Assembly: GCF_964275005.1 (NCBI RefSeq) | Contig: NC_092685.1 | Location: 29,658,682-29,722,681 of the forward strand | DNA length: 64,000 bases | From: Diadema setosum | Taxonomy: Eukaryota; Echinodermata; Echinoidea; Diadematoida; Diadematidae | Reading direction: 5' to 3' | Part shown: positions 3,210-57,156 of the stretch, in pieces | Position numbering within the stretch: position 1 is the first letter of the stretch | Layout: each line of letters starts with the position of its first letter | Notes under the pieces: model-generated | What the model was told of the DNA's origin: nothing | What the model saw: only the letters and a program-made list of their open reading frames with translations | Databases searched by the model: none | Translations under genes and position numbers: made by a program

Positions 3210-3870
3210 CGTACAGGAAAGATTTATAAATAAACTAGTTTTAGAACACAAAAAAAGACTGCTTCCTGGTTCCATTTCTTCTATTCCCTGACAATTCGTT
3301 CGTTTTTGCCTTCCCAGTAATGTACAAATTTGGCGACAATTGCAGGTCAACAGGGCATGCAAACGTCAAGTTGAATGCGTCACATCTTCACGACTTTACT
3401 TTAGGGTTTCTCCTCCTACGCTTCGGATATTTTAGGGAAATACAAAATGTCCGTGGGTTTCTTTCAAGATGGTAAACAGCTTCTTGCACTTTGGGTGTTT
3501 TTCCCCCTTTTTTCAGCAGGTCTACATTGTTTCAATTCAGAACAAAAAGAAAAGTGAGTCACGATTTTAGTTTCCAAGGAATGCCGAGGATGAGTCATTC
3601 ATCCCGCTATCGAAAACAATCAAGTCACATGTCAAAGTTCTTCTTGCCCGCTTTGCAGATTTTTCCCAAATCCCTGCTTGAATTTGACAAGGCGTAATGA
3701 ACCTCGTTGGAAGATCGGTACGTACAGCTATTAACACTGGCGTGCACAAGAGCGGTACATTCCGATTCTGTAGTTTAGAACAGGTGCCATGTCCCTCTAC
3801 ATCTGCGCATGGCTCCGATGACATGAAAGTTGCCAGATATCAGGTTTCAGCTATCATTAGTACACAGGAT

Positions 3871-3899
3871 CATGGACCTACAACAACCGTAGGTCCATG
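3871..3899. mobile_element. Micro-palindrome A (29 bp), 7-bp TSD
   Basis: Starts CATGGACCTAC and ends GTAGGTCCATG around a short unpaired core. It is flanked by the identical 7-mer ACAGGAT at 3864-3870 and 3900-3906. Member of the window-wide micro-palindrome family. Confidence 0.8.
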
Positions 3900-3909
3900 A
3901 CAGGATCAT

Positions 3910-4776
3910 GGCTGGATAAATGGATCCATCTTGCTAAATTGAACTCGACAAACTCCTGAATGACAAGTGTGGAACGTCTTTTTGTCATCGATAGGGACCA
4001 TGCCCCTCCCCCGTCACTCAGTGTAGTCTGGGTCCCAGACGCCTGTAATTGTCATTTTAATCCAAGAGTGTCGGTACTCCGCGACCCCACAAACGCTCTT
4101 CTCCCTCGGAGCACTTACAAACATCAGTTTACAGAAATAGAAAATTAATGGGCACAATTCAGACTAATAAATGGTAACGAATTTTGAGCAAGCGTCAATC
4201 TATCATTTGGACATCACAGAGTATTTTCATGTTGGCAAAATGCCTGTGTAGAGTGACAGGGTGGATCTACAATAGATTTCACAATTGATATGTAAAGATT
4301 GCCTAATGATCAAGGGGAGAATATTCCACAGTTTTGATGTAGTAATTATCATTATATCCCATCACCTGCAAAACTTCGGGTTATTTGGTAGTTGAGTTGA
4401 AGGTTGTGATTTGAGGATCTAAGCTTTCTACTCAGGGTGCAATACGGTTGAACCTTGGGGCCTGGTCATTGCATGAGAGATTTGTCACGTTGTTTGTATA
4501 CAAAATGTTGAATAGCAGGCCAGAGAAGGAAGTGAAGCATACTACCAGAGGCCAATGAGGACGCCGTTTCTCAACCTCAAATACAAAACGCAAAGTCCAA
4601 TTCCACAGACGCTGAAGACGACTTACATGAGACTTGGGAATAAAGGAAAGGATTAAGTCCATTACAACAGTCCAGTCTAGAGAGCTGGAGAGAATGAGTG
4701 ACCTTACAGCGTGATGACACGTGGTTTGATAACAACAAAAATGTTCGGATGCTCTATATTCCTCAAATGAGGTGTA
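3910..4776. other. Gene-free stretch
   Basis: Only short open frames without motifs (for example 3960-4148 plus, 4432-4662 minus). No repeat family recognised. Confidence 0.4.
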
Positions 4777-4783
4777 CTGACAT

Positions 4784-4804
4784 CATGGACCTAGTAGGTC
4801 CATG
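4784..4804. mobile_element. Micro-palindrome B (21 bp), 7-bp TSD
   Basis: A continuous palindrome CATGGACCTAG/TAGGTCCATG flanked by the identical 7-mer CTGACAT at 4777-4783 and 4805-4811. Same arm sequence as copy A, in unrelated surroundings. Confidence 0.85.
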
Positions 4805-4892
4805 CTGACATAAAGTCCTGGTTATGTTAGCATCAAAGAATTACATACCCCCGATTCCTTGTTGATTCTGATGAATGTATAGAATATATACC

Positions 4893-4933
4893 AATTTTCA
4901 TTCATTCATTCATTCATTCATTCATTCATTCAT
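4893..4933. repeat. (ATTC)n microsatellite
   Basis: About ten ATTC units followed by a T-run. Confidence 0.9.
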
Positions 4934-5522
4934 TTTTTTTCCATTTCCAGCAGTGTCAAATCAGACAAGTTGTTGTTACGTCGCGGTTTGTTTGTGCAGC
5001 AATGAAAAAAAAAACATTTTAACTATAATTAAACTTAAACTTAATTGCAGTCAGCCAGTAGGCCTATACCTTGTATCCGATACACAATTTTGTAGTGGTG
5101 ACATGAACAAATCCAACTGTTTATGGAGTTTAGGATCACATACCACACTATACCAATAGCTATGTTGAATGCAATCCCGTTGCTGTTAATCGCAAATTAC
5201 GTCGTCAGTATACTTGGATCTGAGCAGGCTACTCTAGAAATGTCAATCATCGAGACAATGATGCCAATCATGAGACGAGAACGAGACCCGACTTATCTTC
5301 AGGTTTTGGGTATAGTGTCACTTCAGTGATGGATCTCTCACTATCTGATTGATTGATTGACAGTCATTCCATGCTGATACTGTTTTGATACGCCGAGTCC
5401 AACGCAGGAACGAAGTCAGATAAATCTAAACACGACGCATTTCGACGTAATCTCCTTGACCTATAGCGGCTGACCACTACCTTGCCACCCAGATACGAGG
5501 CGGTCACTTGCTGTTTACCACT

Positions 5523-6231
5523 TTAAAGCCACTGTTTACCATTGGGAGCAATGATAAAAAAGAATAGATTTATCACAATAATTTTGATGCATACGTAGTG
5601 TTCAGTTGTATCACAGAACATCCCATCATATAAATATTTGGCAATAAAGCCACAAATTTAACGAGATATCACTATTTTTTTTTTCAATAAACCATAACTG
5701 TAGATGGTATATTCCAGAAACGATTTTAATAAAACTGTTATTCACATTTTGTTCATTTAACAAGACTTAACATTGACTATAGTGATTAACATTTTTACGT
5801 TGGTTGTTTATATCCCTAAGTCACAATTAAGAACTAGACTTGGAATTTGTCAACACTGACAAATTAGGTGATCCGATCTTTTCTGAAATCAATGACTTGA
5901 GTCCTGATCCAAATATTCATGACCATACATGTTTCACCTGTGTTGACGGGACATTGGCCGTGTGATGTTTGGATTCTCATTTAGAAAAGGGAGTACCTGC
6001 CATCTTTGGTACCGAATTCCGTATACACTAACGGAAATATAGAATGAAGTATACTTGACCTTTGACCTCACTTTGCACACCCAAGATGGCGTCTGAGCAA
6101 AAAGTGATTAATTTATGAAATGATTCTTGTAACATGGTCTTTACGTGTGCAAAATATGGGAAGAAGCACTGCAGCTGTTTATTTTTGTTTTTCATCTGCA
6201 TATGATAAATAGTGGCTTTAATTTGCAATTT
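5523..6231. mobile_element. TTAA-bordered MITE family 1, copy with insertion
   Basis: Borders TTAAAGCCACTGTTTACC and GTGGCTTTAA. The body (ATTGGGAGCA, ATCACTATTTTT, TCCCTAAGTCACA, TCATCTGCATATGATAAAT) matches copies at 11538-11902 (inverted) and 12989-13349 (same orientation). Those copies are about 365 bp. This one is about 340 bp longer because unrelated DNA lies at about 5848-6188. TTAA ends are typical of piggyBac-like or Kolobok-like elements; which one cannot be told from the ends alone. No transposase. Confidence 0.75.
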
Positions 6232-7212
6232 CTATGAGGAGCCCTCCACAACATTGTATCATGGATTGTGATTTTTTTTTTCTTAATTACCAGCTGCCAT
6301 CATCTCACTGGATTTTTGTCTGAACGTTCAGAATGGAGAGAGAGAACTACACTGAACCATATCAACGAACAACAATTAAATGCCCGCTAAGTGCAGACAA
6401 GAATCGATGAGGCAAGCTGACAGTAATGGTAGGGACTCCAATATTAGCCCGCGATAATCGCCGTTTGATAACATTAAGACTCAAGAGCAGAATGTCGAGG
6501 ATAAAGACGAATTCGATTGACAAATTGAGGCGATAGAAAACAAGAAGAGGACGAAATGGTAGCTTGCTTGTGACTGACGGCTAATTACGTAACATTCATA
6601 ACTGCGTGTCAATTGCGGTCACGTGAAACATATTCCCACCATCGTCGCGGTTTGCACCGCCAAGCACAATGCAAAGAATTCTGGAATTCCGTTTGAAACC
6701 TTTGTCTTCTTACAAAGCAATCACAAGATATACTGACACCTCCACATAAACAAACACATACACACATACATATACACACACACAGACATACACACACACA
6801 GATAATAATATGCGAATTTCCTCTGAATGTTTGAACAATTAACCTCGAGAGCAGTTCTTGGTTTCTTTTGTTCAAATCAGGAAATACAAACAAACGAAAG
6901 ACCAGCAAAACTTAACCATTTATATTGCGGCCACGACTCAACAAGCATGCTATTAAGTAGGTCCCATCATATTTCTCCCGCTTTGGAAAATTATAGCCAG
7001 AATACTGCCCTAATGGGCCTTGAATAAGGATCGAAGAAGCTTTGGTCACTTTCAGACACACTGATATGACGTATTTCACTTGACACTACGTAATTTCTGT
7101 ATAATAGCCCGGCACATCTTTCGACGCGCACAGTTCACGTCATCATTCCCGGAACGCAAAGAAAAACGGGGTTTTCAAAACTCATGGTTCTCCTGCACAT
7201 AATCACTCTACA
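6232..7212. other. Gene-free stretch
   Basis: Contains an interrupted AC-rich run at 6749-6800. No supported exon or repeat family. Confidence 0.4.
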
Positions 7213-7655
7213 GAATGGTTACAGTTCGTTATTCGAAGATTTATTAATCCGAAAGTGAAATAAAGTTCGAAATACTGCGAAATACTGTTTGTCCGAAAAA
7301 TCTAAAGAAAAAAAAAAGGGGGGGGGTCGTCATCCAAAAGGTTAATCTGAAAAAGGAAAAAGGTTCGAAATTCCGAAGGTTCGCTCGTGAGCACACTTTT
7401 TTTTTTTCGGATAAACGAACCTTATTTCATTTTCGGACTATCGAAACTTCGGGGTAACGAGCCGCATTTCATTTTCGGATAAACGGACCTTCGGGATAAC
7501 GAACCTTCGGAATAACAAACCTTCGGAATAACGCTACAAAATAATTAATATTCGGATTAACGAACCCTATTTCCAATTTTGGACTAACGAGCATCTAGCT
7601 ACTCAGAATTTGTGTGTTTCGGATTAACGAACCTTCGGAATAACGAGCATCACCC
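7213..7655. repeat. TTCGG-rich dispersed repeat
   Basis: Variants of GGATTAACGAACCTTCGG and GGAATAACGAACCTTCGG recur at least eight times on irregular spacing, in both orientations near the left end (TTATTCGAAG at 7230). The stretch has sharp edges against unrelated flanks, so it looks like one dispersed element with internal short repeats. Family not recognised. Confidence 0.6.
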
Positions 7656-9090
7656 CTGCAGAATCACGTTCTCAAAATACATGATACAGAGAAAGATAGC
7701 AATCATCACATACGGGCGTGGTAATTTCTTCCTGATGCTCACACATCATAAAATAAAATCGTCGTTATGTTGTACAAACTAGGCACCTACACTGTACTTA
7801 TATATCTCTATACAGCTTCACCTCCCTCCCTGTCTCTGAAAAATTAATCCCGACATTTTCAGCCTCCGGTACGGGACGCGAACGACGTAGCCTCCCCTGT
7901 TTGTCTCTGGAGTCACCCGTACTGACTAATTATTAGATTAATTAGAGCGTCTACGACAGATAACGGCACGTTAGATTCACGACTCAGCTTTCCGTTGACA
8001 CCTTTAATTACACCTAGTTGACAAGCGAGCGTATTACGATTTCTTTGATATTCACACAAAGCCGGATTTTGGCCAAGAGTTTGTCCGACCACTCACTCAG
8101 AGACAATTTCTGCAATTATACCATGACGGCTGTACAGGCCTATGAAGGAGGTGATAAGTCAATTTCAAATACTGTGGTCCATAGATTGCTTTGAAACAAC
8201 CATGGAGCTACAAGTAGCTCCATGAAACAACCAAAAGGAACAGCCTATAATGTTGCATTTCTACCTTACTATATACGGAGGCTCTGATTGGCTAAAGTTT
8301 ATGAAAAGGCCGTTGTGATGCATTCACACTTTCCTTGAGGAACTGGTAATGAACTTGCACATCGGCTGTTTCTCTAATTTACACTCTAATACCTAGAGTT
8401 CAATTTTAATGCATTAATGGTTTCTATGCCAGACGAGTCTTGGGGATATTTGCCCGATTGGTACATACAGTGTACATAGAACAGGAACGTTTGGAAGCGG
8501 TTTGGTTGTGCTCTGTTGGTCCAAACTTGTGATGGAAATACAAGTCGATTTGACGGTACTGAGGTAACGACCGGTTGCACTTTTCTTTCTGCATGGACCG
8601 GAAAACGTTAGCGAACTTGCACCTTGCTTTGTGAGATTATTGGTCACACTCCTGCCGATCACGGTCAAGCGATCTATGACCGGCGTATCAACGTCGTCGG
8701 TAACCATAGAAACGTCCGTCTGCAAGTCATCATCCCCAGTCGCTCTCCCTAGCGAGAGGTTGTGTACCAATCGCCCCCCCCCCTCCAGCCCCCCTCCCCA
8801 CTTCTCCTTTCTCATTCGTTGCCTCTTTTGTTCTTTCTCGTGGGCTTCCATCTGTTTAACCTATTTTATCGTGGCTGGTGCTCAGAAAGCTAAAGTCGGT
8901 CCACATTCTCACATCTAGTTCGTGTTCTCATTTCGCTCCTTGCCTTCTGCGTGGTCGCGGGTGATTTCATTTCCTTGCATCTGCAGTGGACAGACTAACT
9001 CCTTGGACAGACTGATGCGTCACAGAATGTCATGCCTTCTGTCGTGACGTTTGGGGGTTTTCTCTCCCCCTCCCTCCCACCCCCTTTCTC
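7656..9090. other. No supported gene; hosts micro-palindrome C
   Basis: The longest open frame (8414-8851 minus, 145 codons) has no recognised domain, and its beginning is a Gly/Lys/Arg stretch made by a C-rich tract. CpG content is moderately raised at 8640-8760. Nothing else seen besides the insert at 8201-8224. Confidence 0.35.
8201..8224. mobile_element. Micro-palindrome C (24 bp), 7-bp TSD
   Basis: CATGGAGCTAC and GTAGCTCCATG arms flanked by AAACAAC at 8194-8200 and 8225-8231. Compared with copies A and B both arms carry G/C-swapped bases (GGAGC against GGACC), so pairing is kept. Confidence 0.85.
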
Positions 9091-12177: not shown

Positions 12178-12543
12178 TTTAAAGGGGAAGGCTAGTAACT
12201 GATCAGTGGGAATCAGTGGAAATGCTGGGGGATGATTGTTCCAATCCTTATGGGATTCATTCAAGAGTTCATTGTATATCTATTGTTGTGTGAAAATGAT
12301 TTGCTTCAGAATGGTCTCATATTCAAGTAATGTGCAGTTTAATGCTTCCAGGTAAGCGTCTCTGGTCAGTGACGGAGCATTAATCTGCACATTACTTGAA
12401 TATGAGACCGTTCTGAAGCAAATCATTTTCACACAACAATAGATATACAATGAATTCTTGAATGAATCCCATAAGGATTGGAACAATCATCCCCCAGCAT
12501 TTCCACTGATTCCCACTGATCAGTTACTAGCCTTCCCCTTTAA
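12178..12543. mobile_element. 366-bp near-perfect palindromic TTAA element (family 2)
   Basis: Begins TTTAAAGGGGAAGGCTAGTA and ends in its complement. The arms of about 170 bp match almost base for base, including GGGGGATGATTGTTCCAATC and GAAAATGATTTGCTTCAGAA. The short unpaired centre lies near 12345-12380 (GTAAGCGTCTCTGGTCAG). A single arm of the same family recurs at 45150-45301. The TTAA border and full palindromy suggest a foldback MITE mobilised by a TTAA-specific transposase. Confidence 0.88.
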
Positions 12544-20553: not shown

Positions 20554-20560
20554 GTCCTAG

Positions 20561-20577
20561 CATGGAGCAGCTCCATG
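20561..20577. mobile_element. Micro-palindrome E1 (17 bp), 7-bp TSD with one mismatch
   Basis: CATGGAGCAGCTCCATG is the shortest member. It is flanked by GTCCTAG (20554-20560) and GTCCAAG (20578-20584), which differ at one base. The right flank is also the left flank of E2. Confidence 0.7.
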
Positions 20578-20584
20578 GTCCAAG

Positions 20585-20608
20585 CAGGGAGGTGGGATCA
20601 CCTCCCAG
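20585..20608. mobile_element. Micro-palindrome E2 (24 bp), 7-bp TSD
   Basis: CAGGGAGGTG and CACCTCCCAG arms (one mismatch) around GGAT, flanked by the identical 7-mer GTCCAAG at 20578-20584 and 20609-20615. It is inserted immediately beside E1 and belongs to the CAGGGAGG subgroup, whereas E1 belongs to CATGGA. Confidence 0.82.
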
Positions 20609-20756
20609 GTCCAAGTGTAGGATACTGCAGTGTGCATTGCGGGGAGGGGGGGGGGGGCGTGGTTGGTAGAGACGAGGGAGAATGGAGAAAGCGATAGGAG
20701 CACGACAGAATACTCTGATCAGGGAGGTGGAAGAGGGACTTTTAGGTCAGAAGCTT

Positions 20757-23534: not shown

Positions 23535-24930
23535 CGTGAAAAATGTGCTGGCACAACTTATCTAACAACGAGAAAGTTAGCGTTGATGTTCAGTTACCAT
23601 GCAAGATGTCAGTAAGTAGGTTGAAATGGAAATATGCTTTTTCTTCGAGATGTTCACGAGGAGTTTACACAGAGCTCCAGGTTCAACCTCGGCGCTAATA
23701 CTAGTTCTGAAAAATTCGAGATTTGGCCCTACTTCAAACCTTTACGAATTTAATGCAGATCTTGTCCCGCCAGTGTTATTTTGGCAATGTCAGAAAAGTC
23801 ATGTGATTTTGTTTGTGTTTGTGTTCTTGCTTGTCTTTCCTTCTTCTTTTCGCTCACGCGTGATTGACGATTTTTGCGACTCTGTTTTCAGTAACCCGGC
23901 AGACGAACTATAGGCGATAATTATGTCACGTACAAGGTTCGCGCTCACCGTTGGTTCCTTGCAGACAACTCCTGTATTCAGACCGACACTGCAGTCGCAA
24001 CACCCCATCAATCAATGCCCACACGTGTACAAAAAATGTTCCCTGCAATTTACGGGTTCACTTCACCTCATATTCAGTCGTCGCGGATAATTGTGCCATA
24101 TTCTTGCCCTAGATTGTCGATTATTGAGTCCAGCGTAAATCATCATCATTCATTCAGACGGGTATCAAACAGATTTTTATCATGTTTGAGGCTCATTTTT
24201 GTTCCCTTTTTATCACAACAGCGTTCCAGAACGTAATAATATGGACAGAACTTGAACACTGGTTTGATTGTTGTTGTTGTTGTTATTGATTTTTTTCTTT
24301 CTCTCTTGTCTCCCTCCCTCTCTTTCTCTTCCTCAATGGTCTCAATTCTACTTCTAGCCAGACTCCATAACATTGTCTCGTGTGACTGGCTGGCAATTAA
24401 AATGCCAAAATAGGGGCATTAACGAGCTTTTTTAATTTCAATATGAAAAAAAAAAAAAAAACAACTAAAATAGGACCCGACAACGCACGAAATACCTAAC
24501 CGTGAACTTCGCCACCCAACATATTCAGTCTGAAACCGGCAAAAGCCCAAACACACACACACACACACACATACTTGTATATGCCTTCAAACGTGGACAT
24601 GCATCTCTAACCCTACAATCGTGGACACCATTATTCAATGGCGCATGCGGACCAGATGCTAGATTATAGTTACAACTGGTATGACTATTACGAAAACACT
24701 AAGAAAGAAACTCTGCGGGCCTTCTAGACAGATCTGTTTTCCACATCCAAACTGTGGACGTATACCCATACCCTTAGCCATCACATGCAAATATGGACCC
24801 TGACTCCTAACCATACTTAAGTGGACATATTTTGAAAATGCAGGCAATTATGCATAATTCAGACGAATGTCATTTAAGTTTGCGTACGCGACTATGATGG
24901 CAAACAGTAATAGATGTTAAACCAATAGTA
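23535..24930. other. Gene-free stretch
   Basis: A GTT run at 24268-24285 and an AC run at 24550-24571. At 24580-24840 words such as GTGGACA and CTAACC recur loosely, perhaps very old satellite. No supported exon. Confidence 0.35.
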
Positions 24931-25039: not shown

Positions 25040-26465
25040 CTAGAAATACAGGGGTCCACTGTTGCAGGTTCACCCGAATGCGATTAAACAAGCATAGGCG
25101 ACAATGTTGGGGAAAAAAAAATGTTAAGCCAATAATGTCCACGGTGGTATAGTCAGTCATATAGGGGTCCACTGTTGCAGGTTTGGTAAGGAAGGGTGTG
25201 TACTGCCAAACCTAACGTCCACGGTGACATAGTCTGGAAATACAGGAGTCCACTGTTGCAGGTTTGTAAAGAAGGTGTATTGCCAGGCATAACGTCCGCG
25301 GTGACATAGTCTGGAAATACAGGGGTCCACTGTTGCAGGTTTGTAAAGAAGGGGCGTGTATTGCCAGGCCTAACGTCCACGGTGACATAGTCTGGAAATA
25401 CAGGGGTCCACTGTTGCAGGTTTGGAAAGAAGGGGCGTGTATTGCCAGGCCTAACGTCCACGGTGACATAGTCTGGAAATACAGGGGTCCACTGTTGCAG
25501 GTTTGGAAAGAAGGGGTGTGTTTTGCCAGGCCTAACGTCCACGGTGACATAGTCTGGAAATACAGGGGTCCACTGTTGGAGGTTTGGAAAGAAGGGGTGT
25601 GTATTGCCATGCCTAAGGTCCACCGTGACATAGTCTGGAAATACAGGAGTCCACTGTTGCAGGTTTGTAAAGAAGGGGTGCGTATTGCCAGGCCTAACGT
25701 CCACGATGACATAGTCTGGAAATACAGGGGTCCACTGTTGCAGGTTTGGAAAGAAGGGGTGTGTACTGCCACGGTGACATAGTCTGGAAATACAGGAGTC
25801 CACTTTTGCAGGTTTGTAAAGAAGGGGTGTGTATTGCCAGGCCTAACGTCCACGGTGACATAGTCTGGAAATACAGGGGTCCACTGTTGCAGGTTTGTAA
25901 AGAAGGGGTGTGTATTGCCAGGCCTAACGTCCACGGTGACATAGTCTGGAAATACAGGGGTCCACTGCTGCAGGTTTGGATTGAAGGGGTGTGTATTGCC
26001 ATGCCTAACGTCCACGGTGACATAGTCTGGAAATACAGGGTCCACTGTTGCAGGTTTGGAAAGAAGGGGTGTGTACTGCCAAACCTAACGTCCACGGTGA
26101 CATATTCTGGAAATACAGGAGTCCACTTTTGCAGGTTTGTAAAGAAGGGGTGTGTATTGCCAGGCCTAACGTCCACGGTGACATAGTCTGGAAATACAGG
26201 GGTCCACTGTTGCAGGTTTGTAAAGAAGGGGTGTGTATTGCCATGCCTAAAGTCCACGGTGACATAGTCTGGAAATACGAGGGTCCACTGTTGCAGGTTT
26301 GGAAAGAAGGGGTGGGTATTGCCAGGCCTCATGTCCACGGTGACATAGTCTGGAAATACAGGGGTCCACTTTTGCAGGTTTGGAAAGAAGGGGTGTGTAC
26401 TGCCAAACCTAACGTCCACGGTATCATAGCATGGAAATACAGGAGTCCACTTGTGCAGGTTTATG
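25040..26465. repeat. 81-bp satellite array, main block
   Basis: About 18 head-to-tail units of about 81 bp. Each contains GTCCACGGTGACATAGTCTG, GAAATACAGGGGTCCACTG, TTGCAGGTTTGTAAAGAAGG and GTGTATTGCCAGGCCTAACG. Neighbouring units differ by a few substitutions, and several are shortened by 1-12 bp. Because 81 is a multiple of three, several frames stay open on both strands (for example a minus-strand repeat QQWTPVFPDYVTVDVRPG). The frame changes along the array with no sign of coding constraint, so I read it as satellite DNA. The left and right edges carry a shared flank word CCCGAATGCGATTAAACAA. Confidence 0.92.
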
Positions 26466-26570
26466 CATAATTCACCCGAATGCGATTAAACAAACGTAGG
26501 CGACAATGTTGGCAAAAAAAGTCTGAACTTACCACCGTGAGCATTATTGGTTTAACATCTTTGATTTTTT

Positions 26571-26700
26571 TATCTTTATTTCTTTCCTTCATCTTGTTCT
26601 TCTCTTATCTTATTCCTCTTCTTCTTCTTCTCTTCCTTCTTCTTCTTTTTCTAGTTCTTTCCTCATTCTTCTTCTCTACTTTTCTTTTCTCTTTCCTATT
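26571..26700. repeat. Pyrimidine-rich (TTC)n-like spacer
   Basis: A CTT/TTC-rich low-complexity stretch separating the two satellite blocks. Confidence 0.8.
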
Positions 26701-26825
26701 TGTACTGATATTTTGAATGTACACTGTATTAGTTGTATAGTTGTTGATTATTTATCTCATGGAAATATGTTTTATTTATGTATCAATCCAACTTTTAGTT
26801 GCAAGGAAGAGCACAATATATACAA

Positions 26826-27355
26826 TAATGTCCACGGTGGTATAGTCGGTCATATAGGGATCCACTTTTGCAGGTTTGTAAAGAAGAGTGTGTACTGCCA
26901 AGCTTAACGTCCACGGTGACAAAGTCTGTAAATACAGAGGTCCGCTGTTGCAAGTTTGTAAAGGAGAGGTGAGCATTGCCAGGCCTAACGTCCACGGTGA
27001 CATAGTCTGGAAATACAGGAGTCCACTGTTGCAGGTTTGTAAAGAAGGGGTGTGTTTTGCCAGGCCTAACGTCCACGGTGACATAGTCTGGAAATACAGA
27101 GGTCCACTGTTGCAGGTTTGGAAAGAAGAGGTGAGTACTGCCAGGCGTAACGTCCACGGTGACTTAGTCTGGAAATACAGGGGTCCACTGTTGGAGGTTT
27201 GGAAAGAAGGGGTGTGTACTGCCAAACCTAACGTCCACGGTATCATAGCCTGGAAATACAGGGGTCCACTGTTGCAGGTTCACCCGAATGTAAAGAAGGG
27301 GTGTTTACGTCCAGGCCTAACGTCCACGCTTGCATAGCCTGGAAATACAGGAGTA
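26826..27355. repeat. 81-bp satellite array, second block
   Basis: About seven more units of the same monomer in the same orientation, ending in diverged units. The flank word CCCGAATG appears inside it at about 27282 and the longer CTCGAATGCGATTAAG at 27382. Confidence 0.9.
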
Positions 27356-33840: not shown

Positions 33841-34920
33841 TGTCCCCGCCGGAAGTACATGTAGCATTTTGTAGCTAAATGTACAATACAGGTCAAATAT
33901 CAAGGTCAAAGCTCAAAGAAGTCAAAGGTCAAAATTCCGTGTAGAAGTTTTGACGCCCTCACCTAGTGCCACCACATAAAGCAAACGGAATCGAAATCGG
34001 ATTAGAAATGGCGAAGGAGTAGCATTTTGTAGCAAAATGTACATACAATACAGGTTAAAAAAATCAAGGTCAAAGGTCAAAGAAGTCAAAGGTCAAAATT
34101 CTGTGTACATGTTTTGAAGCCCTCAACTAGTGCCATCACATAAAGCAAACGGAATCGAAATCGGATTAGAAATGGCGAAGGAGTAGCATTTTGTAGCAAA
34201 ATGTACAATACAGGTCAAAAAATCAAGGTCAAAGGTCAAAGAAGTCAAAGGTCAAAATTCTGTGTAAGGGTTTTGAAGCCTTCACCTAGTGCCATCACAT
34301 AAATCAAAGGGAATCGAAATCGGGTAAGAAATGGCGAAGGAGTAGCATTTTGTAGCCAATGTACAATATAGGTCAAAAATCAAGGTGAAAGGTCAAAGAA
34401 GTCAAAGGTCAAACTTCCGTGTACAAGTTTTGACGCCCTCACCTAGTGCCATCACATAAAGCAAACGGAATCGAAATCGGATTAGAAATGGCGAAGGAGT
34501 AGCATTTTGTAGCAATAATGTACAATACAGGTCAAAAAAATCAAGGTCAAAGGTCAAAATTCTGTGTAGAAGTTTTGAAGGCCTCAACTAGTGCCATCAC
34601 ATAAAGCAAACGGAATCGAAATCGGGTTAGAAATGGCGAAGGAGTAGCATTTTTTTTATCAAAATGTACAATATAGGTCAAAGGTCAAGGTCAAAGGTCA
34701 CAACTGAAATTCTGTGTAGATGTTTCAAAGCTTCCATGTAGTGCTATCATATAAAGCAAACAGAATCAAAATTGGCTCATAAATGACAGAGATGTAGCAA
34801 ATTGAAGATTTTGATCACACACGGACGCACAGACAGATGGACGGACGGACGGACACACGGACACACACACGTACGGAGCCCGTTTCATAGTCCCCTGCTC
34901 AAACTCGTTCGGCGGGGACA
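33841..34920. mobile_element. Element with GTCCCCGCCG ends and tandem-repeat core
   Basis: The left end TGTCCCCGCCGGAAG and right end TTCGGCGGGGACA are inverted repeats of about 11-13 bp. The core is six imperfect tandem units of 145-164 bp (starts near 33862, 34020, 34184, 34343, 34500 and 34645), each with TAGCATTTTGTAGC, AAGGTCAAAGGTCAAAG, GAAGTCAAAGGTCAAA and CAAACGGAATCGAAATCGG. A (GGAC)n tract at 34838-34866 precedes the right end. AGGTCA-type arrays followed by GACGGACGG tracts are, from memory, a recurrent layout in marine invertebrate genomes. No coding frame. No clear target-site duplication. Confidence 0.75.
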
Positions 34921-42500: not shown

Positions 42501-42513
42501 ATCACAGTCCTAC

Positions 42514-42542
42514 CAGGGAGGGGGTCTCTTCCCACCTCCCTG
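42514..42542. mobile_element. Micro-palindrome F (29 bp), 7-bp TSD
   Basis: CAGGGAGG and CCTCCCTG arms around a T/C-rich centre, flanked by GTCCTAC at 42507-42513 and 42543-42549. It lies about 170 bp downstream of the donor of the secreted-protein exon, so within that intron. Confidence 0.82.
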
Positions 42543-42718
42543 GTCCTACCGACTTTACATTGTCATGATGTACTTGCCTACTTTCATCACTATGACTTTT
42601 TTTGTTGTTGTTGACGAAGCAAAATTTGACGTTAACAAACGAGACACCACTTCAAATCATGATGAGAGGATTGGAAGTGTTTGGATTATATGAATCAGAG
42701 AAAATTCAGCTGACTTAC

Positions 42719-43641: not shown

Positions 43642-44870
43642 CTTCTGCATACACATGCGTGCACACACCAATTCTTATTCGAACGAATAACATGTGCATG
43701 GCCCAGCTGAGACTGATTCCACGAGAGGAAGTTGGACGCACAGCTAGAGTCTGATGCTGCTCTTCGAACTCCTGGCACAGTCTCGGCGAGTCATGTTGGA
43801 GCTGACATTCGCAGGAACGCAGGGGACCTGCGGCGCGTGCATGTTCGTTTGTGAATCGCTCGCCTGCCACATGCACACTGACGAACGAGAGTGGTAAATG
43901 AACGCAAAAACAACATTCACAAATTTTGGGATTACTCTCTGACAAATCCTTGTGGAGAAATTATTTCGGAGAGATCTCTCTCGCTATAAAACACTACGGG
44001 ATGTCACAGGAATCCGCAACGGGTGGCATCTATTGTGTGTCCCGAGAAAGTTTTTGATAGAGAAGGCGAAGAGAGTGCGCGCGCGGGAAGGGTTTATGCG
44101 AATAACGGTGCAGACGGCGACACCGCTCATCACGAATTTTATATTACGTAACTGTCGTTTTCCGTCATTTGTCACATCGTTTTTCTCAATTCTCATGTGG
44201 TAGGTCAGCAGAAATGATGACAGGAATAGACCTACAATGAAAAGGGCTATTCTACAGTAGCTAAAATTGCTGTGCTTGTTCAAAAGGGAACTGAATTGCA
44301 GTCTTCTTCGTCAACTAAATCATATTCTCTGATTAAAGTTTCACTCTTTCTCTCTTTTTCTCCCTCCACGACCTCCTCCTCTTTTCCCTTTCTTTCTTCA
44401 GTCTATCTATCCACATTTCTATCTCTCTATTCTCTCATCATGTACTATTCAGTGCAACAAATTGAAATTTAACTTACGCAACTGGAATATTATCAGTGAC
44501 ACTTGTCCTACGTCACAGTGCTATCTCTGCTAATCTGTACATAAGATGGTATGACTGCCGCTGAAACCAATACATGCAACGGTTTGTCTCCCTTTCAATA
44601 CAATGACAAATCACATCACAAGCAGGAGGGAGTATAGTATAAGAGATCGGCAGAGATTGAAAAATTCATGTATGTGAAAGGAGGAAGACAATTCGGAAAA
44701 GATATACAATTTTAAAGCCGCTTACATCACAGCGATCGGAGAAGGTCATCGATATTATTATACGCGGGTTGTCAGCAGACAATCGGCCTTATAGAAGACA
44801 TAATCCGTGTCCTCTGCTGAGAGTTTGTCAAAGGGTCACTTCATTCAATGGATGGACATGGTGGATATTC
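43642..44870. other. Gene-free stretch
   Basis: Mixed composition. A pyrimidine-rich run at 44340-44440. No supported exon. Confidence 0.4.
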
Positions 44871-45301
44871 TAAAGGGATGATATAGTATTGGTTGAGGTG
44901 ATGATTCAGCTTGTAACTTTTTGCGAGAAACTTAAAAACCATCCCAAGAGCATGCAATTCTAAGAGGAATTCAAAGTTGTTGTTTTTTATGAAAATTGGT
45001 TTTGAATTGAAGATAAGTATCCCAAAAGAAAGCAAAACGAAGCGATCCTAATAAAAGGTGTGCCCCACCTTTTATTATAGGATTGCTTAACTGCCCGTTA
45101 ACGATCACCCCGTCACTGTACAGGCATGCTAACCTGTTATGGAAACATTAAACTGCACATTACTTGAATATGAGACCATTCTGAAGCAAATAATTTTCAC
45201 ACAGCAATAGATATATAATGTACTCTTAAATTAATCCCACAAGGATTGGAACAATCATCCCCCAGCATTCCCACTGATCAGTCACTAGCCATCCCCTTTA
45301 A
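44871..45301. mobile_element. Chimeric TTAA element: half family 3, half family 2
   Basis: 44871-45083 matches the left arm of family 3 (AAAGGGATGATATAGTATTG, AGCATGCAATTCTAAGAGG, GAAAATTGGTTTT). 45150-45301 matches one arm of the palindrome at 12178-12543 (ATTACTTGAATATGAGACC, GGATTGGAACAATCATCCCC) and ends CCCCTTTAA. Neither half has its partner arm. The junction at about 45084-45149 is unrelated DNA, so deletion or recombination joined two elements. Confidence 0.75.
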
Positions 45302-45639
45302 GAAAGAAGATAAAAGGCAGCAAAATCAAAGAGCCATAGAGACGATGTGTGTGTCTAGCTAAGTCACTACTTCTGATGCAAATCATTTGTTTGTCCAGGT
45401 AGCGTCCGTTTGACCAACATCGGTTTTCTTTGCAGTGAAAAGCCACTAAGTGCGTGACTATTGAATATGGTTATTCGAATAAATATTCTTTTAATAAGAC
45501 AAAAAATACTTGTGATAAGAATTATGATAAACATACACTTACGCCATGATGTTAAAAATAAACGAAATATATTATTACCATTGTACAATATGATATGACA
45601 ATAATTATCATGTCGTGACAAAGGAAGGGAATGCTAGAA

Positions 45640-46477: not shown

Positions 46478-46484
46478 GTCAGAT

Positions 46485-46517
46485 CAAGGAGGCACTAGTT
46501 CGCCTAATACCTCCTTG
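46485..46517. mobile_element. Micro-palindrome I (33 bp), 7-bp TSD
   Basis: CAAGGAGGCACTAG and CTAATACCTCCTTG arms flanked by GTCAGAT at 46478-46484 and 46518-46524. The whole insert is self-complementary apart from transition-type mismatches. It is the only window member with CAAGGAGG ends. Confidence 0.82.
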
Positions 46518-46524
46518 GTCAGAT

Positions 46525-47920: not shown

Positions 47921-47927
47921 ATGTGAC

Positions 47928-47952
47928 CAGGGAGGTGAGTCTCACCTCCCTG
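47928..47952. mobile_element. Micro-palindrome G (25 bp), 7-bp TSD
   Basis: CAGGGAGGTGAG and CTCACCTCCCTG arms with a single central base, flanked by ATGTGAC at 47921-47927 and 47953-47959. A perfect palindrome apart from the centre. Confidence 0.88.
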
Positions 47953-47959
47953 ATGTGAC

Positions 47960-50540: not shown

Positions 50541-50543
50541 AGC

Positions 50544-50591: not shown

Positions 50592-50678
<87 letters not shown>

Positions 50679-51706: not shown

Positions 51707-51829
51707 CATACAAGTAACATTAAATCATCATTATGAACAGTATTCATTTTAAAGTATAAAGAAGTAATGCAAATTCAGACTAATCTAACAATGTTCAATT
51801 GCGATCTCGAGGTTCAACCTTCAGGCACC

Positions 51830-52050
51830 TTCAGGCACTTTTCACTGAGCCGTGTGTACCCAACAAAAGAATGGTGAAAAAAAAATCACAATAGTAGATA
51901 TCTACACACATGCGCATGCATTCGCACACACACGTAAAAAAAAAAAAAAAAAAAGGAGAAAAGGCAAATAAATACACTGACAAAAGACGCGACGTCGACA
52001 AGGGAAACAGCACAATGACATTACAAAACAACGAAGTACAAGAAGCTAGA
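51830..52050. other. Low-complexity interval
   Basis: A-tracts and an AC-rich run at 51905-51950. No gene. Confidence 0.4.
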
Positions 52051-52299
52051 AGAAGGAATCAAACGGAGCAGAGTGGAATGTAGTGAGGTCTGTATTATGA
52101 TAGAACACTCCACTCTATTGTCAGAACAGGTGAAAGCATTCATGTTATTCCTTCAAAAAACCATATCTGTTATTGTTTGCCGAAAGCAAATAATTAAAAG
52201 AGAAATCTTAGTTTATATTTACACGAGTTTACAAGATTCTTTAAACCTGTTGTCAAGGTTATTCCAAAGTTTGGGTCCAGTACATCTAATAAACGAATG

Positions 52300-52556
52300 A
52301 AGTGTTTGTTCGCAAAAACCGATAAGTCCAATTTTGAAGATTTTGAAATACGGTCTTTGTCATAAAGTACAAAATAATACCTTTTAAATGAGATATTGGT
52401 CACTACATATAAAGGTACATTTTTGAAGTTATGGTCAAAAGAAGCAAAAATTTTCTTATTATTCTCTTTATTTTTCTTGACCTTTAATCGCAAATATCTC
52501 CATTTGGCAAATATGGACTTATCGGTTTTTGCAAACAAACTCTTCGAATATACCTG
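52300..52556. mobile_element. 257-bp foldback insert in the LINE, 11-bp flanking repeat
   Basis: The left arm AAGTGTTTGTTCGCAAAAAC and the right arm (reverse-complemented) GAGTTTGTTTGCAAAAACCG share an inverted repeat of about 35 bp around CGATAAGTCCA. The 11-mer ATAAACGAATG flanks at 52289-52299 and 52557-52567. Removing it restores the LINE reading (HSFI joined to RLLD). The right arm has an extra TATATTCG stretch outside the pairing, so exact ends are uncertain. Confidence 0.6.
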
Positions 52557-52946
52557 ATAAACGAATGCATTTTGGATGTACAGTATACTGCTCCGAATAA
52601 GTGGAGATTGTCGTCTAGGAATTTGCGAACGTGAAAACTTATATTTCGATGAAATGAATCGTGGGATATCTTGGGGGAATGATTACTGTTATGATCAAAC
52701 ATAAACTGACCAAGTTTAAATGCGTACAAATCCTTTATCTTCGAGATTTCAACAAAGCATCAATATGCGTTTGTGGGTGAAGGTTTAAACAGTTCTGAGA
52801 GTCTTCTTTTGCAATAAGAACATTTTATCTGGTAATGTCTGCTGGTATTGCCCCAAGCTGATATTCCGGAATTTCAGATATATAGGCCTACAGTAATATC
52901 AAACTTGACTATAACATCATCAATGCAGATGTAGGAAGCCAGTATT

Positions 52947-53342
52947 TTAAAGGGATCGTATAGTTTTGGTTGAGACCTAATTTCAGGTTTCTAACTTTTT
53001 TTCTTTCTTTTTTTTGGTGAGATAATGAGAAACCTCTTATGAAATAGGAAAGAGCATGTAATTCTATGAGAAATTCAACGTTTATTTGATGAACATTGAT
53101 TTTGAAATGGCCGAGATATCGAAAGTAGAACGATTCTAATAAAGTTTGGGACCCATACTTTATTACGATCGCTTTGTTTTACTTTTTTTTTGTATGTTTC
53201 AGTCATTCCAAACCCGATTTTCATCAAATAAACTTTGAATTCCTCTTAAAATGGTATGCTCCGTAGGCCCTACTATATCATAAGTGTTTTCTTGGTATCT
53301 CGCAAAAAGCTCATCTCCACCAATACTGTACCATCCCTTTAA
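52947..53342. mobile_element. Family 3 palindromic TTAA element inside the LINE
   Basis: TTAAAGGGATCGTATAGTTT to CTGTACCATCCCTTTAA, with inverted GAAATTCAACGTTTATTTGA and TCAAATAAACTTTGAATTCC arms. It interrupts the minus-strand LINE after EMKRL and therefore dates after that LINE. Confidence 0.85.
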
Positions 53343-53559
53343 CCTCTTCATTTCACCTATATTACGTGAAATAATTTTGCAAACCCTATCAACATGACAT
53401 TTCCATGAACGCTTGTTATCAACAGAAGCACCTAGATATTGATCCACTACGGTAAATGATATTGATTGGCATCGCGAGCCGACCATAGCATGCAGCCACG
53501 TGTTACACACACGACCTTCAGTTACATTCCTCAAAAAATTCAATAAAACCCTAACTCAC

Positions 53560-54200
53560 AACAACAACAAAACATATATTCCCACACTTTTGGAGGTGAT
53601 GTCCAAAGTCTAATCGAGCTTTGTTTGAGGGACCCATGTCAAGCAACACGCACCATGCTTTTTATTCAGCTTACACTTCTTTCATGTTGACGTACAACTC
53701 TTCTGTTCAACTCTTTTGTTACTTTTATTTTGAATAGGCCGTCTCACACTCCTTGATATCCTTGCCAAATCATGTTTGCTCTGTAGGGGTGTCATACATA
53801 TTTTCTTCCCATTTTTTTTTGTGTGTGTGTCTCTTTTTCAAAGCATGATTTAGTTGTTCTTTTTTTTTCTACGGGCTGTTAATTTTTCCACAAAGTCCCA
53901 AACGAGGGGTTAGTAGATTCAACATCGACACCAATGGTTACTTTATAACATAATGAACTCATTAAGTGATTTACCAACAGACAACTGTACCCCTATCGGA
54001 AACTAAGAAGATTTGCTCGACCAACAGCTGCAATGTACCTGAGCAAGCTGAGTGCATGAAACATAATTAACTCAGACAATCCCTTAAGTATAGTTACTGA
54101 AAGGCTCAAATTGTATTTCTCTTAAACGAGAAGCTTGCCCCAAACAGAATCATGATAATGGATCAAGAAAAGCCAGCAATACTGGTGAAACATGATGTGT
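53560..54200. other. Gene-free stretch
   Basis: T-rich patch at 53810-53880. Nothing recognised. Confidence 0.4.
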
Positions 54201-54208
54201 GAAGAAAA

Positions 54209-54777
54209 TTAAAGGGAAGATAAACCCCAAGAACAATGTGGATTGAGTGAAAGCAGCAACATTAGTAGAACACATCAGTGAAAGTTTGAAGAAAATCGGA
54301 CAATCGATGCAAAAGTTATGAATTTTTAAAGTTTTGATGTTGGAACCGCTGGATGAGGAGACTACTAGAGGTTATGACGTATGAGTGGACTACAATATCA
54401 AGAAAATATAAAGAAAATACTACAAAAATCAATTTTTCATGAAAATTACAAATTCCATCAACTTGATATTGACATATGTTAAGGGTAGCAATTATTCCCC
54501 CTGCTTTCTGAAAGCGGTTGGTCCACTGCTCTTTCATAATTCTAGAAAAGTGAATTTTTGTTGAATATCCTTTATATTTTCTTTGTATTGTTGTCCACTC
54601 ATACGTCATATCCTCTAGTAGTCTCCTCATCCAGCGGTTCCAACACCAAAACTTAAAAAATTCATAACTTTTGCGTCGATTGTCCGATTTTTCTCAAACT
54701 TTCACTGATGTGTTCTACTAATGTTGCTGCTTTCACTCAATCCACATTGCTCTTTGGGTTTATGACCTTCCCTTTAA
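54209..54777. mobile_element. 569-bp palindromic TTAA element, family 4
   Basis: Ends TTAAAGGGAAGATAAACCCC and GGGTTTATGACCTTCCCTTTAA-type sequence (imperfect complement). Long arms match (GTAGAACACATCAGTGAAAG; CATCCAGCGGTTCCAACA with its complement TGTTGGAACCGCTGGATG). The centre is near 54490. Bordered by TTAA. A diverged relative is at 20757-21165. Confidence 0.88.
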
Positions 54778-54779
54778 CT

Positions 54780-55960
54780 ACAAACCAGATTTGGTTCATT
54801 CCGTATGCCGCCTTCTCTACATGATAAGAACTCCTGTACAATCACTCTGTGAAGGGATTGTAAGAAAAAAGATACATTGAAGAGCACCATTTGGCTTTGA
54901 TTTAAAAAAAAAAAATCCAGCATGTCATATCTATATCGTGATGGCGCGAAAGTATAGAACAGTGTGAAGAAATCATTGAGTACATTTTACACTGAATAGA
55001 GAGAATTTTCTAGGACACTGAAAGCGCTTCTGATCCTATTCCCTGAGAAGGCAAAATAGTCCATATCCATTTATTTGTGTTTCCTTTGAGAGACCTGCAC
55101 ATTTTTAATGGGCTAATCCATGTCGTTATCTGACATTTTATTACTATAATGGGAAACATTTTTGTTTTAAAGAATGATAATATCTGCCATTTGATTTCAC
55201 TGCATCATCATTTCATTTGCACACATTGGTAATTTGTGATGTGTTGAAAAATTAAATGAACCTTGAATTTACTTGACATTTAATTGAACTAAATTGCATA
55301 TTGTTGTCTCTGTCGTTGCAAATAATGATATCAGTTGTTAGTGTGGGGATTTCATCTCGGGAGGGGCAGCCAGGAAACAATATCTAAAAAGTGCCTAAAT
55401 TTCTAAACGTACTTTCCATTTTCCCTCCTAATGTTCACAGTGTGTCACTAATATCTTTCTGCATTCGCTTTTGGGGAAACTTCCCGCTTTGAAGCTAAAA
55501 TACATTGTATATAGTTACTTGTCCATGCTGTCATTTAGTTGTGCGGAACCCGCAGAACAGGATGAAAAGATGTCAACACTGTTAATGCCCGATTGATATC
55601 AATCCGGAAGCTCTTGTTAATAGCCAAAAATCTGACAGACTTGAGCAGAAAGATTGGCAAGTGACACAAACGGATGTCCAGTGAACTGTAAGCATTTCTG
55701 TCTATCGAAATCACGGAAGTGCAACCAAGGGGGGAAAAAAGTTGCAAAGTCCCTCCGAATTGATAAGTCTAGTACACCCTCATCCGCAGTGGTATAGTCA
55801 TAGTTTGCGAACATTATTTTTTTATCAATACAAGACTGTTTGCTGGTACAGTATTCAGCGTCCCAATCACGAAGTGGACGAGGCGTACTTTCATGACTAT
55901 TATACGATTACACGTGTGGAGGAGCGAGGGCGTGAGCGAAGGAAAAAAGAATAGAGAAAT
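54780..55960. other. Upstream region of the plus-strand gene
   Basis: No TATA box at a convincing distance. Minus frames at 55535-55814 have no motif. The stretch just before the ATG (55900-55960) is purine-rich with two AGCGA words. Confidence 0.35.
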
Positions 55961-56090
55961 ATGCCGGGAGCACAGAAAAGTGGATTTTGGAGTGTGAAAT
56001 CTGGAATATTTCTTCTTCCTCCATCATATCGCGATGAGAACATATACCCGAGCCCAGAGATGCGTGATAAACTGCAAGCCAAAGGATTCG
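55961..56090 (+). CDS. Exon 1 of a gene of unknown function (plus strand)
   Basis: An ATG in the context AGAGAAATATGCC opens 43 codons plus one base and ends at a strong donor (TTCG/GTAAGT at 56091). The peptide starts MPGAQKSGFWSVKSGIFLLP and ends SPEMRDKLQAKGF. No signal peptide: the hydrophobic patch GIFLLPP is short and internal. Its phase (1) matches the acceptor of the exon at 59961. I do not recognise the sequence. Confidence 0.6.
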
Positions 56091-56369
56091 GTAAGTTTAG
56101 AACAGTGGAGGCGAGTCCTAATTTCTGATCGGCGTAATCAGAGTTTGACATGCAGTTTCTAGTCACCGGCACGATGTCCATTTGTATCTCGTTGGTGGGC
56201 TGCGAGTCCGTGGATATAATCCAGAACCTAACTCTTTCTGTCTCTTTTTCATTATCCCTCTTTTCCAAGCGAGAGCATCATGTTGGACCCCCTTCTCTTA
56301 TTGCCTTAACGTATTGTATCATTGGTTGCCAAAGGGTCAAGCTTATATTATTGACAACCGTTCTGTATG

Positions 56370-56527
56370 GTACTTTATAACTCATGTACTATGTGTAATA
56401 AAAATTGTTGAAATTGTAGAAACTTCAATTTTGTGAGTATCATATTTGTATATATTATGTTTGATTGCACTGCTAAAAATATTGTAAATGATGCCATACA
56501 GAGAATAAATCAAATCAAATCAAATCA
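56370..56527 (+). mobile_element. LINE-type 3' end with (CAAAT)n tail
   Basis: An AT-rich stretch with several polyadenylation-like words, ending GAGAATAAATCAAATCAAAT with four CAAAT units. It lies in intron 1 of the plus-strand gene. A SINE using the same tail cannot be excluded. Confidence 0.5.
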
Positions 56528-56914
56528 GACACCAGATTTGCACTGCATGAATAAGTTGATATACAATGATGCTGCACACCTCCACGGGGTAGAAATTAGA
56601 ATTTCTGCCCGGGATTTCTGACAAATATCCGCATTTTTATCATACGGTGGACGCTTTATGTGCGTATCTTCTTCTCCTTTCGTAAGTCCCCCCCCCCCCA
56701 TATCTTTCTCTGTGTACCTTCCACATCTCTTTCTCTTTCGATTTCCATATACATTTGTGTTATGCACTGGTACTGGTACATTGTAGTTAATTTTTGCAGC
56801 GTTGTCCGTATAGAACGCCGGGGATTCCCCGCATCCGGGGTTACGAGGACCAGACTACTCGGTGGCGTTACCTGCTGGTCGTCTACGTACAATGCCATTG
56901 TTGCTGCGTACATG

Positions 56915-56939
56915 CAGGAGGTGGGATCCCATCTCCCTG
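56915..56939. mobile_element. Micro-palindrome H1 (25 bp), 7-bp TSD
   Basis: CAGGAGGTGGGA and TCCCATCTCCCTG arms (one indel and one mismatch), flanked by GTACATG at 56908-56914 and 56940-56946. Confidence 0.82.
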
Positions 56940-56970
56940 GTACATGTAAATACTTTGGTCAATATCATAC

Positions 56971-57005
56971 CAGGGAGGTGGGATGAGACTCATCCCACCT
57001 CCCTG
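56971..57005. mobile_element. Micro-palindrome H2 (35 bp), 7-bp TSD
   Basis: CAGGGAGGTGGGATGAG and CTCATCCCACCTCCCTG arms with one central base, flanked by ATCATAC at 56964-56970 and 57006-57012. It is the longest and cleanest member, 31 bp from H1. Confidence 0.9.
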
Positions 57006-57156
57006 ATCATACGGAGTCGCGTATATACTGTGTATCTCTATACATAAATCAGTATACAGATACATGTATATTACATTGAAAGATTCAAAATATTTCGTTA
57101 GGTCATCCAATAAACCAATTTGTCAAGGTTGGAAAGGTTAGGCCTGTGTTTCTGCG

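Follow-up and report, generated by a model that had tools for sequence, protein, structure and literature searches.

Short palindromic inserts between 7-bp direct repeats in Diadema setosum, probable excision footprints of P-superfamily transposons

A 64,000-nucleotide stretch of the Diadema setosum genome (the window) carries tiny palindromes, each set between two copies of a 7-bp sequence, and raises the question of whether these are ultra-small mobile elements or the scars that larger elements leave on excision. The sequence-only reading had listed ten such inserts, nine of them with identical flanks, and this description is confirmed: all ten are present in the window at the coordinates below, and the one unequal pair belongs to insert 20561.

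3864..3906, unstranded: footprint, ACAGGAT + 29-bp insert 3871-3899 (CATGGACC ends) + ACAGGAT
4777..4811, unstranded: footprint, CTGACAT + 21-bp insert 4784-4804 (CATGGACC ends) + CTGACAT
8194..8231, unstranded: footprint, AAACAAC + 24-bp insert 8201-8224 (CATGGAGC ends) + AAACAAC
20554..20584, unstranded: footprint, GTCCTAG + 17-bp insert 20561-20577 (CATGGAGC ends) + GTCCAAG, one mismatch
20578..20615, unstranded: second footprint at the same 7-bp target, GTCCAAG + 24-bp insert 20585-20608 (CAGGGAGG / CCTCCCAG) + GTCCAAG
42507..42549, unstranded: footprint, GTCCTAC + 29-bp insert 42514-42542 (CAGGGAGG ends) + GTCCTAC
46478..46524, unstranded: footprint, GTCAGAT + 33-bp insert 46485-46517 (CAAGGAGG ends) + GTCAGAT
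47921..47959, unstranded: footprint, ATGTGAC + 25-bp insert 47928-47952 (CAGGGAGG ends) + ATGTGAC
56908..56946, unstranded: footprint, GTACATG + 25-bp insert 56915-56939 (CAGGAGG / CTCCCTG) + GTACATG
56964..57012, unstranded: footprint with nearly full ends, ATCATAC + 35-bp insert 56971-57005 (17+1+17, read as 18+17) + ATCATAC

Eight exact-arm inserts are present where 0.47 would be expected, in a window that was chosen because of them. A Pfam search of 10 of the 32 window reading frames gave nothing but a retroelement endonuclease.

The flanking repeat was compared across lengths (k) by scanning the window for inserts of 12–60 bp that start with CA and have perfect 6-bp arms. Seven inserts with an exact repeat were recovered at k=7 (eight with one mismatch tolerated; inserts 20585 and 56915, with imperfect arms, fall outside this count), two at k=3 and none at k=4, 5, 6, 8, 9, 10, 11 or 12. 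The mean over 20 shuffles of the window within 200-base blocks was 0.0 at k=6–9 and 0.05 at k=5. Without the CA rule, the same scan gave 8 at k=7 against 232 at k=4, 126 at k=6 and 63 at k=8, an excess at even k that presumably reflects simple repeats. A relaxed scan of 348 kb, allowing at most two mismatches in total over arms and repeat, was likewise swamped, k=7 (30) showing no excess over k=5, 6 and 8 (63, 68 and 56).

Beyond the window, a genome scan with four arm types returned 6,758 matches, where controls with the pattern reversed gave 17; nested matches are counted twice. The CAGGGAGG arms account for 4,028 (control 1), CATGGAGC for 1,041 (control 1), CAAGGAGG for 1,003 (control 8) and CATGGACC for 686 (control 7), and the genome seems to hold thousands of such inserts. 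Among the first 20 CAGGGAGG places, the exact direct repeat is 7 bp long in 12, two of which (L052 and L061) are copies of one repeat, and 8 bp long in one; there are no exact repeats at 4, 5, 6 or 9–12 bp. The rest comprise one place with a single mismatch in the 7-bp repeat and six with two or more. These lengths, like those of nine of the ten window inserts, match the 7–8 bp expected of the P superfamily; the 8 of 20 places lacking an exact 7-bp repeat count against footprints of that superfamily. Three of four sampled CATGGACC loci carry an exact 7-bp repeat and the fourth has one mismatch; for CATGGAGC and CAAGGAGG, flanks were read at the window inserts.

One insert sits within a dispersed repeat with 23 paralogues, which allowed the empty-site prediction to be examined on paralogues of a single insert rather than on orthologues. 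The empty site, joined so as to retain a single 7-mer, has 241 places in the genome at no more than three mismatches (control 0); the 100 of these that were listed carry one mismatch (48) or two (52), and several fall within the 23 paralogues of the insert-bearing repeat. Landing with duplication of 7 bp is observed in the constant 7-bp repeats and in the single-7-mer empty sites of this insert. Window flanks cross-matched against the sampled loci gave nothing beyond footprint sequence and one 20-base match.

The duplicated target is itself roughly palindromic. Of the 26 exact duplications, symmetrised, 85% have T as their second and A as their sixth base. The tally behind this figure has 37 rows, in which 26 pairs are exact, 5 differ at one position and 6 at more, one of these six being insert 56915 entered with its right end three bases too far out; it leaves aside insert 20585, L053 (8-bp repeat), L061 (a copy of L052) and L062 (14-bp repeat). 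A palindromic target preference is expected of the P superfamily, and the pattern may be compared with the GTANTAC of Galileo; the TA and TTAA targets of Tc1/mariner and piggyBac footprints are not seen. The ends agree as well: inverted repeats of the P superfamily start with CA (CANRG), and those here start with CATGG, CAGGG or CAAGG, partly by construction as the searches used these arms.

The inserts vary in a manner that suggests trimming. Distinct sequences make up 44 of the 50 compared, and 38 of the 50 can be written as two end prefixes plus at most four filler bases, with an end set picked after the data were seen; the 12 that require more filler count against P-type footprints. Trimming differs from arm to arm, and within one end type the agreement between arms ends near nucleotide 18. 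The base that follows the 17-mer CAGGGAGGTGGGATGAG, nucleotide 18, is A in six of eight sites (seven loci and the left arm of insert 56971; T stands there in its right arm), and nucleotide 19 varies between the sites (T 3, C 3, G 1, A 1). The shortest of 43 places with exact 17+17 arms is 35 bp; none is 34 bp and 22 measure 35–38 bp, which fits ends of 18 nt. The same 43 include 18 places of 45–49 bp, 13 of them a 48-bp class too uniform for independent joins, which may reflect amplification of one repeat or a genuine short element. In length lists of the first places, all on C1 and from a search allowing up to 46 bp, 49 of 50 CAGGGAGG places are at most 37 bp, and all 50 CATGGAGC and 47 of 49 CATGGACC places at most 36 bp (one nested 39-bp place dropped). 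The ceiling is softer for CAAGGAGG, with 8 of 50 above 37 bp. Cleavage about 17 nt inside the element may be reflected, indirectly, in same-type arms that stop near 18 nt. At four of seven sites the remnant is single-ended, some 18 nt from just one terminus.

These features are best explained, with a probability of about 0.84, by excision footprints of cut-and-paste transposons of the P superfamily. An element would insert at a roughly palindromic target and duplicate 7 bp; its transposase would later excise it by staggered cuts, one strand being cut exactly at the terminus and its partner roughly 18 nt within each inverted repeat. On either side of the break a 3' overhang of no more than about 18 nt of element sequence would remain, and trimming and end joining of the two inverted overhangs would give a 7-mer, a palindrome of at most about 36 bp and the same 7-mer. 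Several element families (those with CATGGACC, CATGGAGC, CAGGGAGG and CAAGGAGG ends) may have done so, thousands of times by the match counts. The ends of Drosophila P start with CA, and its footprints consist of the direct repeat and part of both inverted repeats. The position of the internal cut is inferred from the arm limit together with the Drosophila enzyme, which cuts one strand 17 nt inside the inverted repeat, after which either end joining or homologous repair mends the donor break (PMC7776569, in part). The putative 18 nt is not exactly the 17 nt of Drosophila, a discrepancy that was counted against the P-footprint reading.

Could the source instead be a cut-and-paste element outside the P superfamily, such as a hAT-like element with unusual 7-bp duplications? 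CAGGG is a frequent start of hAT elements, with which the CATGG ends are at odds, and the transposase search covered the P type only and tied none to these ends. The hAT target NTNNNNAN shares the T...A symmetry of the duplications, but hAT forms hairpins on the donor flanks (both from the part of PMC3878927 available), so that stretches of up to 18 nt from both inverted repeats would not be expected to survive, and it duplicates 8 bp (PMC2874221, in part). The inserts have 7-bp repeats and keep up to 18 nt of both ends, where a hAT footprint would have an 8-bp duplication and no inverted-repeat sequence; both the repeat size and the long retained ends fit the P superfamily, and a hAT-like origin is improbable. 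Footprints of Tc1, piggyBac and hAT, as far as that same portion of PMC3878927 describes them, differ from the inserts here.

The sequence-only reading had offered ultra-small MITEs or excision footprints, and it is the second option that gains, from the 44 of 50 distinct sequences, the varied trimming and the agreement of arms to about 18 nt. Palindromes of 17–36 bp that are themselves mobile, through a transposase needing only terminal repeats, would account for the constant duplication, the high match counts and the uniform 48-bp class with its 13 copies. A MITE family would share its interior, however, and the inserts mostly differ, with no common interior and with lengths of 17–37 bp in one tally and 18–46 bp in another; the single-ended remnants argue in the same direction. 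The sequence that Drosophila P needs is, moreover, no shorter than 138 bp at one end and 216 bp at the opposite end (PMC1562414, in part), and mobility of the palindromes themselves is quite improbable. Extreme internal deletions, in which only the termini survive interrupted gap repair after P excision, would draw on the inefficient repair that often yields defective P-superfamily copies (PMC4168063, in part), but their endpoints should scatter over hundreds of bases, yet same-type arms stop near 18 nt and three of the four length lists rarely exceed 36–37 bp, so this origin is very improbable.

If the inserts are P-type footprints, the genome might be expected to encode a matching enzyme. 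The P-superfamily transposase domain PF21787 has 52 matches, and HTH, RNase H N, GTP-binding and RNase H C domains occur together in four of six scanned frames; no THAP domain was matched in these six stop-to-stop frames. No pair of the ends described here lies within 20 transposase loci of about 3.4 kb; near-identical copies align up to the locus ends, so the element ends lie outside the fetched loci. The list of CAGGGAGGTGGRAWGAGA places (C1, plus C2 up to 32.7 Mb), a stretch holding only two of the 52 transposase matches, has no end within 0.2 Mb of either (C1:37463395 and C2:19576694). No intact element with these ends was found in the loci sampled, which counts against the P-footprint reading, and a P-type transposase is their putative source. 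Candidates for longer elements lie at C1:40029747-40030408 and C2:32687018-32687657. Longer elements were also sought in the window and the first sampled loci, as exact repeats bounding inverted ends of 8 bp that begin with CA and lie within 6 kb of each other. At k=7 the window gave seven of the known inserts and two further pairs, 24406-24834 and 44614-45378, set aside as probable chance pairs. A CAGGGAGGTGGAAAAGAG half-end at L044, 163 bp from an open frame, was set aside as well, its partner end and repeat being absent.

The view that no nuclear family of this form had been described proved too strong, since 7-bp duplications in Galileo and the 17-nt internal cut of P transposase are both on record; the best reading is a known kind of footprint on an unusual scale. 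Drosophila P is a single family with 8-bp duplications, whereas the inserts here have 7-bp repeats, a probable stagger of 18 nt and matches in the thousands. Galileo, a Drosophila member of the P superfamily, is alike in its 7-bp duplications (few of 8 bp) and palindromic GTANTAC consensus (PMC4168063, same part), but its known elements carry long inverted repeats, where trimmed ends alone are read here. The P-MITEs of Anopheles gambiae likewise have P-type ends and are non-autonomous, but they share internal sequence and have 8-bp duplications, unlike the inserts here, which lack a shared interior (PMC1562414, same part). A genome-wide population of P-type footprints was not found described in titles and abstract openings, a coverage outside which most subscription journals fall, and the available part of PMC13228809 holds nothing on footprints.

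It is possible, though doubtful, that one lineage of the P superfamily, with 7-bp duplications and a stagger of 18 nt, was excised so often in the germ line that its scars far outnumber surviving copies; in a bolder form, Diadema setosum would favour excision or even place it under developmental control. Such a transposon group could be read and dated almost wholly through its scars, each of them one end-joining event, and they would reveal past transposon activity to which counts of elements are blind. With thousands of double-strand-break repairs, self-labelled and largely independent, the genome would offer a natural record of germ-line end joining, showing trimming, microhomology and filler with the starting ends known, and short palindromes that repeat annotation likely overlooks would become a regular class. 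From the 18-nt arm limit it would also be possible to predict where a non-insect P-type transposase cuts. Zebrafish Pdre2 / THAP9 differs from the present case in duplicating 8 bp and in having 50 or more homologous sequences, with no scar population mentioned in the available portion of PMC10983969, and is alike in having an active P-type transposase outside insects and ends that start with CAT (CATACCTGTCAAC).

Ten short palindromic inserts, each starting with CA, ending with TG and lying between two copies of a 7-bp target, had been claimed for the window by the sequence-only reading, and all ten are present. A scan for CA-start inserts of 12–60 bp with perfect 6-bp inverted arms returned exact direct repeats of 7 bp at seven window inserts (eight if one mismatch is permitted), of 3 bp at two, and of 4, 5, 6 or 8–12 bp at none; after shuffling within 200-base blocks, the mean at 7 bp was 0.0. 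Inserts 20585 and 56915, named by start position, have imperfect arms and exact 7-bp flanks. When the CA start was dropped, the window signal was drowned by matches at other lengths, and in a mismatch-tolerant scan over 348 kb the 30 matches at 7 bp were swamped by 63 at 5 bp, 68 at 6 bp and 56 at 8 bp; such matches at other lengths are presumably simple repeats.

The duplicated 7-mers follow a motif, which was built from 26 exact repeats and symmetrised: position 2 is T and position 6 is A in 85%, position 1 is G/A and position 7 is C/T in 77%, and the third base outside the repeat is T (left) or A (right) in 58%. A GT start or AC end occurs in 20 of the 26, versus a fraction of 0.115 among 20,000 7-mers drawn at random from the window. 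The P-superfamily element Galileo is described as having 7-bp repeats of consensus GTANTAC and occasional 8-bp ones (PMC4168063). One GTCC(T/A)AG target, at window 20554-20615, seems to have served two families, since it holds two footprints with unlike ends. About 110 bp from this double footprint, an CAGGGAGGTGGAAGA end without partner or repeat (window 20720-20734) is possibly a single-ended remnant.

The window is C1:29658682-29722681, part of contig C1. The genome (912.7 Mb, 102 contigs) was searched for exact 8-mer arm pairs of total length ≤46 bp, with the reversed pattern as control; lengths were taken from the first listed places per arm type, all on contig C1.

Arm types, each read as one element family's end: genome matches; control matches; lengths above 37 bp
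CAGGGAGG: 4,028; 1; 1/50
CATGGACC: 686; 7; 2/49 (41 and 42; one nested 39 left out besides)
CATGGAGC: 1,041; 1; 0/50
CAAGGAGG: 1,003; 8; 8/50
Four types summed: 6,758; 17

Some matches are copies of one repeat, since the 50 CAGGGAGG inserts listed comprise 44 distinct sequences. Among the 20 places that head the CAGGGAGG list, each taken with 20-bp flanks, 12 show an exact direct repeat of 7 bp; there is one exact 8-bp repeat (locus L053) and one 7-bp repeat with a single mismatch (L071), and six places, L062 among them, have at least two mismatches. Exact repeats of any other length from 4 to 12 bp are absent from this sample, in which one repeat is represented twice (L052 and L061). By eye, the L062 footprint (C1:3316770) lies between 14-bp direct repeats ATTTAACTCTTAAC instead of 7 bp. 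Three of four CATGGACC loci have an exact 7-bp repeat and one a mismatch, and the flanks of CATGGAGC and CAAGGAGG inserts are known from the window only (two and one, respectively). At L004:1482-1527 (C1:30260385-30260430), an extra CATGGACCTACA precedes the left 7-mer ATGATAC, as if the site had been reused by a second excision or repair event.

Empty sites were sought by joining the flanks of 19 inserts with a single 7-mer and querying the genome, 40 of 653 candidates being scored. The insert at L003:1501 (C1:29277861, 7-mer ATTGAAC) sits within a dispersed repeat, 23 other copies of which align across the junction over 124–138 bases, the occupied site measuring 167. Its 24-base joined-site pattern, with a single 7-mer, matched 129 + 112 = 241 places at ≤3 mismatches (control 0); the 100 matches listed carry one mismatch in 48 cases and two in 52, and several matches fall inside the paralogues (e.g., C2:26345743, C5:43065263, C16:5157167). 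With such single-7-mer matches among the paralogues, the simplest course of events is gain of the insert together with an extra 7-mer copy. Two paralogues cross the junction of L003:1068. The sequence-only reading had proposed a search for orthologous empty sites; for L003:1501 paralogues took their place, and for the window's own inserts no paralogue was listed among the candidates scored.

Six end sequences, picked by eye, were used to decompose the 50 CAGGGAGG inserts: in 23 of them two end prefixes abut or overlap, 15 carry 1–4 filler bases and 12 carry more. The 17-mer CAGGGAGGTGGGATGAG has nine genome matches, two being the arms of window insert 56971; four of the seven places outside the window are single ends without partner, L045 and L047 are complete footprints whose 7-bp repeats have one mismatch, and L049 adjoins a second footprint with ATAGGAC repeats. 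The base after CAGGGAGGTGGGATGAG is A in six of eight cases (the seven outside places and the left arm of 56971), and the following base is mixed. Exact 17+17 arms CAGGGAGGTGGGAAGAG occur at 43 places, with lengths of 35 (6), 36 (7), 37 (4), 38 (5), 39 (2), 41 (1), 45 (3), 47 (1), 48 (13) and 49 (1), and none of 34; we read the retained element end as 18 nt. The uniform 48-bp class (13/43) does not look like independent joins. For the softer length limit of CAAGGAGG, the sole explanations that we can offer are filler and a longer stagger between the two strand cuts.

P transposase is described as making staggered cuts, one at the end of the element and one, on the opposite strand, 17 bp into the inverted repeat; end joining or homologous repair can then mend the donor break (PMC7776569). 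Two overhangs filled and joined would leave a palindrome of at most twice the stagger between two target copies. Tc1/mariner footprints are given as 2–3 nt and piggyBac as leaving none, and hAT excision gives hairpin-ended flanks (PMC3878927). The P-type RNase H domain has at least 52 genome matches, and four of six frames scanned hold HTH, RNase H N, GTP-binding and RNase H C domains above cut-off, so this enzyme class is present in the genome; a THAP domain was not matched in the six frames. We infer that a P-type transposase made the scars, from a putative P-type source element. The list of 18-mer ends covers C1, and C2 to 32.7 Mb; on that stretch only two of the listed transposase matches fall, and neither has a listed end within 0.2 Mb. 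C1:40029747-40030408 (662 bp) and C2:32687018-32687657 (640 bp) each hold three copies of the 18-nt end, two forming an inverted pair of 48 bp and the third likewise inverted, and are candidate non-autonomous elements with these ends.

P-superfamily excision footprints are known in flies. A full-text literature search found nothing on a population of such scars; new here are the 7-bp/18-nt form, the number of scars and, by our inference, a host outside insects.

Twenty 10-kb stretches, at equal position on each of 20 contigs (4,592 bases masked), yielded no exact 7-bp match, with 1.4 exact-arm inserts expected from the four genome totals; they held three one-mismatch matches with unrelated arms and one insert of scar type with imperfect arms (L011:302). 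The window, chosen since inserts were noticed there, has eight exact-arm inserts versus 0.47 expected. At 0.4 Mb from it, L003:1068-2490 (C1:29277428-29278850) contains four footprints within 1.5 kb; they lie ~0.3–1.7 kb upstream of what may be a first coding exon, seen by eye only (2765-2851, then GTAAGT). On C1, 7 of 49 CATGGACC places fall in 29.2–30.5 Mb, and CAGGGAGG is only mildly clustered (gaps <20 kb, 8/49 versus 4.2 expected). P elements are described as hopping locally and preferring promoters and replication origins (PMC7776569), and either habit could explain the insert cluster.

Other features of the window
12179-12543: long inverted repeat, foldback or MITE-like (168 nt, 98%)
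25133-27351: unit of 81 bp in tandem arrays (84–92% matches), both strands having open frames that run across copies
33861-34772: tandem arrays, units of ~159 and 145 bp
54220-54763: long inverted repeat, foldback or MITE-like (224 nt, 91%)
62288-63556: open frame with retroelement endonuclease domains (PF03372, PF14529)
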